Source: Mucilaginibacter tolerans
GTDB lineage: Bacteria > Bacteroidota > Bacteroidia > Sphingobacteriales > Sphingobacteriaceae
Assembly: GCF_030519375.1 (NCBI RefSeq)
Contig: NZ_JAUMKB010000006.1
Location: 186,001 to 250,000, forward strand
Reading direction: 5' to 3'
Length of the DNA stretch: 64,000 bases
Part shown: positions 55,578 to 57,780 of the stretch, piece after piece
Layout of the letters: every line of letters begins with the position of its first letter
How positions within the stretch are numbered: position 1 is the stretch's first letter
Translations under genes and position numbers: made by a program
The notes under the pieces: generated by a model
Told to the model about the DNA's origin: nothing
What the model saw: the letters and a program-made list of their open reading frames with translations, nothing else
Databases searched by the model: none

Positions 55578-56468
55578 TTATTGGATCAATAATTTCCTAA
55601 AGGCTAAACTATCGCCTCTGAAGGCATCAAAATCAACCACATGATTGATGCCGTTTATAGTAGCTCTGTCTGAATGCTGCCAGAAAAGCCATTTTGTTTC
55701 GGGACTCAGGTTGAGTTGCGCCTGGTGATAATGTGCAATCCACAGTGGGTAACCCTCGAAATACCCTTGCAGGTAATCCTGATAAAAACTGATGCCAGAG
55801 TAGATGATGGGCTTTACACCAGTTCTGCTCTGGATATAATTTAAAAACTCCTTCAGCTCCTGCCGCATCTTATTGGGGTTGGTGCCGTTAAGTTCTTCAA
55901 TATCTACTACAGGAGGGAAATCTCCTTTTTCTATCTTAACGGTTTGAAGGAAAAACTTGGCCTGCCATTTACCACTTTTGGATGGTTTAAAATAATGATA
56001 TGCGCCACAAATGAGTCCAACCTTCGGAGCCTCGCGCCAATTGCGCTGAAAATATGAATCTACCAGCAACACGCCTTCCGTTGCTTTAATAAAAGCAAAA
56101 CTGATGTGCACACTATCCTCCTCCATATTCTTCACCTTTTGCCAGTCGATTTTTCCCTGCGCATAGGATACATCGATGCCATGGATCGCGTATTTATCCG
56201 GTATCCGGATATTGAAACTTTTATACGTACGGTAATGCGGCTCTTCGCCTATATCGCGTATCCATCTCCAGGTCGAAGTGAATGTTCTTAGAACATAAGC
56301 ATAGTAAAATGGAGATAGTAATATCAACATTAGGCCAGCAACGGCAACTTTTAACTGTATCGGCCAGCCTTTGCCCTTTTTCTTTTTAGCAGGAGCCTTT
56401 TTTCTTACAGGTGCTTTTTTAGATACTACAGTTTTTTTATTAGGAGCGGGCACGCTCCAAAAATACAA
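55578..56468 (-). CDS. Membrane-anchored GH25 lysozyme-like protein
   Basis: The protein of up to 296 residues has a strongly basic Lys/Ala/Pro-rich N-terminus (about 10-38), a membrane helix (about 42-62) and a GH25 muramidase domain (about 95-296). Catalytic-site motifs are HGIDVSYAQG, FIKATEG, PVVDIEEL and a final VVDFDAFRGD. It would cut the MurNAc-GlcNAc bond of peptidoglycan in the periplasm. The start is unsure: TTG at 56468, or GTG at 56453 (VPAPNKK), which has GGAG just upstream. Confidence 0.9.
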   Translation of the reverse strand: MYFWSVPAPNKKTVVSKKAPVRKKAPAKKKKGKGWPIQLKVAVAGLMLILLSPFYYAYVLRTFTSTWRWIRDIGEEPHYRTYKSFNIRIPDKYAIHGIDVSYAQGKIDWQKVKNMEEDSVHISFAFIKATEGVLLVDSYFQRNWREAPKVGLICGAYHYFKPSKSGKWQAKFFLQTVKIEKGDFPPVVDIEELNGTNPNKMRQELKEFLNYIQSRTGVKPIIYSGISFYQDYLQGYFEGYPLWIAHYHQAQLNLSPETKWLFWQHSDRATINGINHVVDFDAFRGDSLAFRKLLIQ

Positions 56469-56697: not shown

Positions 56698-57780
56698 ATG
56701 AAAACAAATATACTTTGGTTACTTTGCGGGCTCGGATTGACGCTGTTCATTAGCGCCTGTTCAAAGGAAAAAACCAAACCTGTTACTACCACAACTTCAA
56801 CGTTGGGTTTGTACGAATACGGTGCGGATAGCGGGAAACGCGCATTTATTCCGGTTACAAAAATAGGCACGCAAACGGTTAATTATTATAGCGTATTCGA
56901 CACAGGATCGGCCGGAATGACCATTGATGCACATGGTATTATACCCGCTGCGATGATAACCAGCTCAGGCATATCGTTTACGGGCGATTCTACAACAGTG
57001 AATGGTATTACCATTAAAGCAGGGCAATATACGCTTAGCTATGGAAATAAGACCGGTTTAACTAAGGAATATGGTTACCTGGCGTACGCCCCTGTCACTA
57101 TTGGCGATGCACATGGAAGCACAAGTGCTGGCCGTGTGCCGGTATTTTTATATTACAAAGTTGTCGACGTGACTTCAGGTAAAACCGAAACGGTTAACCA
57201 TTCATTGGATATTTTTGGCGTGGGCCCGGGTAGCAGCTATGCCAATTCGGCAATAGTAAGCCCCTTGATTTATTTTAATACCGACGCAAGCCTTATCAGT
57301 GGATTTAAACTTGCTTTATTACACAGAAGCCAGTTCAGCACCACAGGAACTTATGTGTCGGCATTGTTAAAAATTGGATTAACCACGGCAGACATAACTT
57401 CCAATGGTTTTATAATGCACCCATTAACGTATAGCAGTGTTGGAGGATATTCAGCAAATATACCATCTACAATAACCTATAACGGGCAAACAATAAGTGC
57501 CAATGTTTTATTTGATACCGGAACCCCTCTGATTTCTACCATCGAAAATAAACTGGCAGTAAACAGCACTGGTCAGCTTCCTGCAAACACACAGGTAACC
57601 GTAACCACTAATATGGGATTTACTTATACTTATACCACCACCAGTACAGCCAATTTAACGCAGGTTGAAAACCCCAATGTAACCGGTGATTATCGCACTA
57701 TATTCGGTATCGATTTTTTTATGGATAACGAATACCTGACTGATTATATGCATCACCAGATAGGATTGAAGAATAATTAA
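56698..57780 (+). CDS. Pepsin-like (A1-type) aspartic protease lipoprotein
   Basis: The 360-residue protein has a lipoprotein signal with ISAC lipobox (Cys21). It then shows every landmark of a bilobal pepsin: VFDTGSAGMTI (Asp68), a flap region LSYGNKTG (Tyr115, as Tyr75 of pepsin), DIFGVG, a second LFDTGTPLIS (Asp273) and a C-terminus IFGIDFFMDN ... HQIGL, like pepsin's ILGDxFxRxYYxVFD...IGLA. Family A1 is mostly eukaryotic, with few bacterial members. I infer an active, surface- or periplasm-tethered acid protease. No propeptide is apparent between the lipid Cys and the catalytic lobe. Confidence 0.75.
   Translation: MKTNILWLLCGLGLTLFISACSKEKTKPVTTTTSTLGLYEYGADSGKRAFIPVTKIGTQTVNYYSVFDTGSAGMTIDAHGIIPAAMITSSGISFTGDSTTVNGITIKAGQYTLSYGNKTGLTKEYGYLAYAPVTIGDAHGSTSAGRVPVFLYYKVVDVTSGKTETVNHSLDIFGVGPGSSYANSAIVSPLIYFNTDASLISGFKLALLHRSQFSTTGTYVSALLKIGLTTADITSNGFIMHPLTYSSVGGYSANIPSTITYNGQTISANVLFDTGTPLISTIENKLAVNSTGQLPANTQVTVTTNMGFTYTYTTTSTANLTQVENPNVTGDYRTIFGIDFFMDNEYLTDYMHHQIGLKNN

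Follow-up and report, generated by a model that had tools for sequence, protein, structure and literature searches.

A conserved family of putative pepsin-fold lipoproteins in Mucilaginibacter and its possible link to DUF3443

The window, by which we mean the whole stretch of 64,000 nucleotides of Mucilaginibacter tolerans DNA analysed here, carries on its forward strand a gene for a predicted pepsin-like lipoprotein of 360 residues (positions 56,698 to 57,780, stop codon included), recognised as an open reading frame with a family of relatives. Residues 1 to 21 (56,698 to 56,760, forward strand) correspond to a signal peptide that is modelled as a helix at residues 2 to 18 and ends in an ISAC lipobox, read from the sequence, at Cys21. 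The short linker of residues 22 to 33 that follows (56,761 to 56,796, forward strand) has pLDDT values under 50 at residues 23 to 31, and the first strand of the model starts at residue 34; judged from this model, there is no space between Cys21 and the first strand for a propeptide of the pepsin type. The only cysteines of the protein are C10 and C21. Upstream lies a divergent gene (55,578 to 56,468, reverse strand), whose product, to go by its motifs, presumably resembles a membrane-anchored GH25-type lysozyme.

The mature part of the protein contains a series of pepsin-like motifs, all encoded on the forward strand. The first putative catalytic motif, D68-T69-G70 (56,899 to 56,907), is followed by a flap-like hairpin tip, Y115-G-N-K-T-G120 (57,040 to 57,057), which is flanked in the model by strands 104-115 and 122-137, and by DIFGVG at residues 171 to 176 (57,208 to 57,225), the psi-loop motif of lobe 1. 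The second lobe has the motif D273-T274-G275 (57,514 to 57,522), a psi-loop motif read from the sequence as IFG at residues 335 to 337 (57,700 to 57,708; part of IFGIDFF, 335-341), and a C-terminal strand with IGL at residues 355 to 357 (57,760 to 57,768), comparable to VGL of pepsin. A first-pass annotation of the same DNA had named these motifs, all of which are present as it described them, and had drawn the limits of the reading frame exactly. It had also described order and spacing as those of pepsin; the order holds, while the spacing is approximate only, given that the distances D68-Y115, D68-G174, D68-D273 and D273-G337 are 47, 106, 205 and 64 residues in the window protein and about 43, 90, 183 and 87 residues in pepsin.

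Conservation was assessed in 217 loci that yielded 221 open reading frames matching the family profile at E <= 1e-5, which were reduced to 131 by merging identical last 300 residues and to 128 by removing 3 incomplete sequences; the set covers fetched loci only, counts near-identical sequences separately and includes two divergent proteins, L160 and L161. Asp is found at position 68 in 127 of these 128 distinct full-length relatives and at position 273 in just as many, T69 (128/128) and S71 are invariant, as are G174, F341 and G356 (128/128 each), and G70 (126), G275 (127), D171 (121), L357 (122) and the lipobox Cys21 (125) are retained in most sequences. The residue at 274 is Thr in 116 and Ser in 12 relatives, and T276, directly after the second DTG, is Thr in 111. 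The sole exception at the aspartates, L034, has Ser at both positions, so that both Asp were lost together; this protein (L034:2887-4002, forward strand) is likely a pseudoenzyme, and its genome also carries an intact copy (L009). Both aspartates are likewise present in all sequences of a second alignment, A2, composed of the window protein and 67 of 82 open reading frames from relatives' loci (68/68), and the sequence patterns by which these loci were recruited lay outside the active site. The first-pass annotation had made its reading depend on conservation of the two Asp in homologues, and this expectation is borne out.

AlphaFold2 run on A2 returned a bilobal, pepsin-like model with a mean pLDDT of 91.5 and a pTM of 0.86, in which confidence is low only at residues 23-31. 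A Foldseek search of the PDB with this model gave 565 matches at E <= 0.001 (best E 7.2e-13), and the best 50 of the 565 are all pepsin-type aspartic proteases; TM-scores, normalised by query length, lie in a moderate range of 0.52-0.59, with an rmsd of 6 to 8 A. VIA-align, run on the top 1000 chains with rows within 1 Z counted as tied, places residues 33-360 on Candida Sapp2 (Z 21.9), human pepsin (Z 21.2, 273 residues aligned, rmsd 3.5) and the bacterial structure 4EHC (Z 21.0, 258 of 280 residues aligned, rmsd 3.0, 20% identity), and these three are tied. The structural comparison with pepsin that the first-pass annotation had proposed thus agrees with its reading of the fold. The hairpin 104-137 of the model, with its tip at residues 116-121, sits where the flap of pepsin would be. 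A retropepsin-like dimer is ruled out by the model, in which both lobes and both Asp are in a single chain, and a recent duplication of the lobes was also rejected, given that profiles of the N- and C-terminal lobes have the motif alone in common (hhalign 20%, 20 columns). In BFVD, the same model also matches A0A4D6EIF6 (Foldseek E 6.8e-6), a 609-residue protein of Pandoravirus celtis and thus possibly a giant-virus protein of the pepsin-like kind.

The features by which Rawlings and Bateman (2009) delimit family A1 can be located in the window protein one after the other. The two motifs of the form hydrophobic-hydrophobic-Asp-[ST]-Gly-[ST] are VFDTGS and LFDTGT, the flap tyrosine on a beta hairpin is predicted to be Y115 between strands 104-115 and 122-137, the hydrophobic-hydrophobic-Gly motif of each psi loop is IFG (172-174 and 335-337; the second Gly is found in 23 of the 128 relatives), and the bilobal pepsin fold is predicted for residues 33-360. 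The complete A1 architecture claimed in the first-pass annotation stands for the window protein and is softer for the family: position 337 is Ser in 101, Gly in 23 and Ala in 4 of the 128 relatives, and at position 115 the Tyr of 107 relatives gives way to Phe in 20 others and to His in one.

The family has a restricted distribution. In overlapping genome samples, matches were obtained in 105 of 149 genomes of the genus (76 of 117 among those at least 90% complete), in 38 of 301 genomes and 2 of 25 genera of the taxonomic family, in 3 of 345 genomes of the class, all of the genus and own genome included, and in 3 of 296 genomes of the phylum, namely the own genome, one of the genus and one short match that was not counted. 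The latter (G727, outside the lineage, E 7.4e-5) spans profile positions 7-78 only, and its locus (L129) has no open reading frame of at least 150 amino acids matching the family profile. Matching named records (80 loci kept of 90 found) mostly bear the name Mucilaginibacter; a smaller part are unclassified Bacteroidetes and Sphingobacteriaceae MAGs. The closest relatives among the records (L046 and L047) are 84-85% identical. The genome of M. tolerans has a second copy (G000:C27:221862-222956) with 48% identity, and a FastTree phylogeny separates a clade of 39 sequences with this copy (support 0.998) from a clade of 52 with the window gene (0.926); the paralogues are therefore old within the lineage. 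Tandem copies occur as well, three in L123 (1446-2627, 3565-4716 and 4875-5987) and two in L041 (2944-4041 and 4217-5356). There is no recurrent neighbour: the most frequent gene within about 5 kb accompanies the family in 11 of 81 loci, many flanks ending at contig ends. A tblastn search with the window protein found no family relative in 72,556 plasmid records, and none of 16 pattern matches in viral contigs was a family relative, leaving a mobile or viral origin unsupported. The literature on aspartic proteases and pepsin did not mention Mucilaginibacter among the matches listed.

Searches with the sequence alone assign the protein to no known family. The window protein matched no family of Pfam and no model of NCBIfam at E <= 10, and nothing convincing among PDB sequences (best E 0.23, luciferases). 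PF00026 (Asp), PF20729 (PE-PGRS_C) and PF11925 (DUF3443) matched neither the window protein nor 22 diverse relatives (the relatives at E <= 1), and PF00026 was seen once, in the divergent relative L159 (E 0.023). The commonest weak match was PF13650 (Asp_protease_2; 5 of 22 relatives, best E 0.032), and PF13975 was found in 1 of 22 (E 0.49). By sequence, the window protein is not a member of the Pfam Asp family PF00026. Searches of 247 genomes of the phylum with the PF00026 and PF11925 profiles gave 0 matches each, and no control match either, so that these counts are not evidence of absence. A profile of 22 family sequences, A1, retrieved a single PDB sequence at E <= 1, that of 4EHC, the aspartic proteinase domain of PE_PGRS16 (E 3.5e-4, as the sum of two individually weak stretches with E 16 and 0.13 of their own). 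With A2, the profile of 68 closer relatives, 4EHC was not found up to E 10, and renin and pepsins came up, aligned at the first DTG, at E 0.79-1.8, which is not significant; the support for 4EHC at this level thus varies with the profile chosen. The PF20729 profile reached only 8.6 bits in the genome of M. tolerans, at a different place than the window gene, and its control search exceeded the cut-off in Deinobacterium chartae, so that a PecA-like domain is not confined to mycobacteria.

The bolder finding is a bridge that leads from the window family to DUF3443. Two divergent lipoproteins encoded in a single genome of the genus, L160 (L160:552-1619, forward strand) and L161 (L161:224-1252, reverse strand), score 44.1 and 41.0 bits with the family profile and 28.4 and 20.5 bits with PF11925, above and below the cut-off of 25, respectively. 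In plasmids, a tblastn search with L160 had one match, a Rahnella aceris protein annotated as hypothetical (E 4e-4; P0002, L218:2303-3373, plasmid pRAHAQ02). It scores 26.6 bits with PF11925 (cut-off 25) and 24.7 bits with PF20729, below the cut-off of 33; the latter match extends over 40 residues at the first motif. This double match suggests that the Pfam families DUF3443 and PE-PGRS_C are related; the Pfam matches of all three bridge proteins are local and near the first motif. We combined L160, L161 and the Rahnella protein into profile A4 and five plasmid-borne DUF3443 proteins, all matching PF11925, into profile A3. By hhalign, A1 aligns with A4 at 98.5% over 303 columns and full length, and A3 with A4 at 96.4% over the first lobe only, while A1 and A3 compared directly give 6.4%, which is not significant. 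After removal of the signal peptides, the hhalign scores are 96.0 (A1-A4) and 75.3 (A3-A4); omitting the Rahnella protein from A4 gives 95.2 and 61.7, and one reversed and five shuffled controls of A4 reach at most 26.4 with A1 and 17.4 with A3. The A1-A4 link is partly there by construction, because L160 and L161 were found with A1, whereas the A3-A4 link is not. A4 also brings up penicillopepsin, in register at DTGS, at a non-significant E of 0.022.

The five DUF3443 proteins share D-T-[GA]-S..GLR, with Gly in 3 and Ala in 2, and all five have D-[TS]-G in their second half. We infer that DUF3443 proteins may be complete two-lobed proteases, the correspondence of the second lobe following from the order of the motifs only, and that the window family may link the unexplained DUF3443 to pepsins via the first lobe only. 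In L219 and in L221 (Paraburkholderia aromaticivorans), the DUF3443 gene is immediately downstream of a DUF2844 gene, and in L222 and L223 a gene for a TAXI-type TRAP substrate-binding protein lies upstream instead. Profile A4 found no DUF3443 protein in viral contigs, where two tblastn matches were dropped, as the open reading frames of at least 150 amino acids there resemble phage structural genes. The literature searched contained no mention of DUF3443 or PF11925.

These comparisons shift the choice of a bacterial counterpart. The first-pass annotation had named shewasin as an example of the bacterial cases; the nearest sequence relatives are instead exported pepsin-like proteins of bacteria, the PE_PGRS16/PecA domain by profile A1 and DUF3443 via the bridge proteins, with shewasin judged by its description. 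Shewasins are described as cytoplasmic and of the PF00026 type (passages in PMC2761423 and PMC4814920) and as devoid of a signal peptide (passages in PMC4814920). In contrast to A1 pepsins and shewasins, the window protein does not match PF00026 and lacks a propeptide. The C-terminal domain of PecA and PE_PGRS16 (PF20729, 4EHC) is exported and two-lobed, as is predicted for the window protein, with a pair of DTG and DTG/DSG motifs; in PecA, however, the domain is preceded by PE and PGRS domains and secretion is of type VII (PMC6819658, in part), whereas the window protein is a predicted stand-alone lipoprotein of Bacteroidota. In DUF3443 (Burkholderiales and others), listed by Pfam as of unknown function, the two motifs of the five plasmid-borne members, D-T-[GA]-S and D-[TS]-G, resemble those of the window family. 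Bacterial retropepsin-like proteases of the PF13650 type have the clan motif in common with the family, but are single-lobed, unlike the present protein with both lobes in one chain.

We consider it probable that the gene encodes an exported, lipid-anchored envelope protein, an aspartic endopeptidase with the two lobes of pepsin that resembles PecA more than the shewasins. To judge from its lipobox, the protein would be exported, lipidated at Cys21 and retained at the envelope, on the inner or outer side of the outer membrane. Each lobe would contribute one aspartate, D68 and D273, to position the catalytic water above the cleft, and the hairpin of residues 104-137, which includes Tyr115, would fold down on the substrate; proteolysis with an acid optimum would be expected. 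Because a propeptide is absent, the protein would be made ready-folded and not as a zymogen, and because the gene stands alone and not in an operon, the substrates would more likely be proteins of the envelope or the environment than one fixed partner. The nearest functional precedent is PecA, a surface protease of mycobacteria that was shown to cleave itself as well as further secreted proteins; its active site is predicted to be a DTG/DSG pair, and it is 43% identical to the PE_PGRS16 domain (PMC6819658, in part). In line with this reading, Thr276 of the window family differs from the Asp that follows the second DTG in the bacterial homologues of 2009 (PMC2761423).

A reading as a pseudoprotease, an envelope protein of the pepsin fold that binds peptides or another ligand without cleavage and keeps the Asp pair for binding or stability, appears unlikely. 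It could account for the Ser that replaces the second psi-loop Gly in 101 of 128 relatives, for the Phe or His at the flap in 21 and for the persistence of L034 despite the loss of both Asp. According to passages in PMC2761423, Rawlings and Bateman judged inactivity the likelier state of bacterial homologues without the psi-loop motifs, and homologues with a flap Phe were uncharacterised in 2009; the structural study of the PE_PGRS16 domain is reported to have seen no activity (PMC6819658, in part). Of these changes, most of the family carries the loss of the second psi-loop Gly and a sixth has Phe or similar at the flap, but the window protein has neither and retains both psi-loop Gly and the flap Tyr. 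Moreover, the Asp pair is kept in 127 of 128 distinct relatives, very divergent ones included, which favours an active endopeptidase.

Recent acquisition of a eukaryotic, for example fungal, family A1 protease is very improbable. The top VIA Z-scores do belong to fungal secreted proteases, though tied with all rows within 1 Z including 4EHC, and the family is restricted to one bacterial lineage in our samples. However, PF00026 is unmatched in 22 family members, with L159 as the sole case, the window protein has neither a propeptide nor cysteines beyond C10 and C21, the profile links lead to bacterial families, and the 105 of 149 genus genomes together with the two paralogue clades argue against a recent arrival; direct transfer from a eukaryote thus finds no support in these sequence searches. 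A reading as a beta-rich lipoprotein that is unrelated to pepsin and has its two DTG motifs by chance would fit the lack of any curated family for the single sequence, but is barely credible, being contradicted by the predicted fold and by the conservation of the Asp. Given the counts for D68, D273 and Cys21 and the bilobal, pepsin-like model, the motifs are more than a coincidence, and Mucilaginibacter and its near relatives have a conserved family of pepsin-fold lipoproteins for which the PecA-like endopeptidase is the preferred reading.

Pepsin-like proteases were long thought to be eukaryotic. To our knowledge, few bacterial ones have been described, namely the shewasins, which are cytoplasmic, and PecA, a surface protease of mycobacteria. 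It is conceivable, at somewhat less than an even chance, that the Mucilaginibacter lipoproteins, PecA/PE-PGRS_C and all DUF3443 proteins form one old bacterial superfamily of exported pepsin-like proteases, native to bacteria and independent of shewasin-type acquisitions. If true, the aspartic proteases of the envelope would include a large family that has gone unrecognised, DUF3443, and the bacterial reservoir of the pepsin fold would be wide enough to ask directly if the pepsin duplication predates eukaryotes. An envelope-anchored family in soil Bacteroidota and its bridge to DUF3443 would extend the known range of the pepsin fold in bacteria, and the family would supply sequences for testing if the two-lobed form is older than eukaryotes. 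Diverse Mucilaginibacter are reported to be ubiquitous in the acidic soils of tundra and forests (PMC12074574, in part), habitats to which an acid protease at the envelope may be suited.
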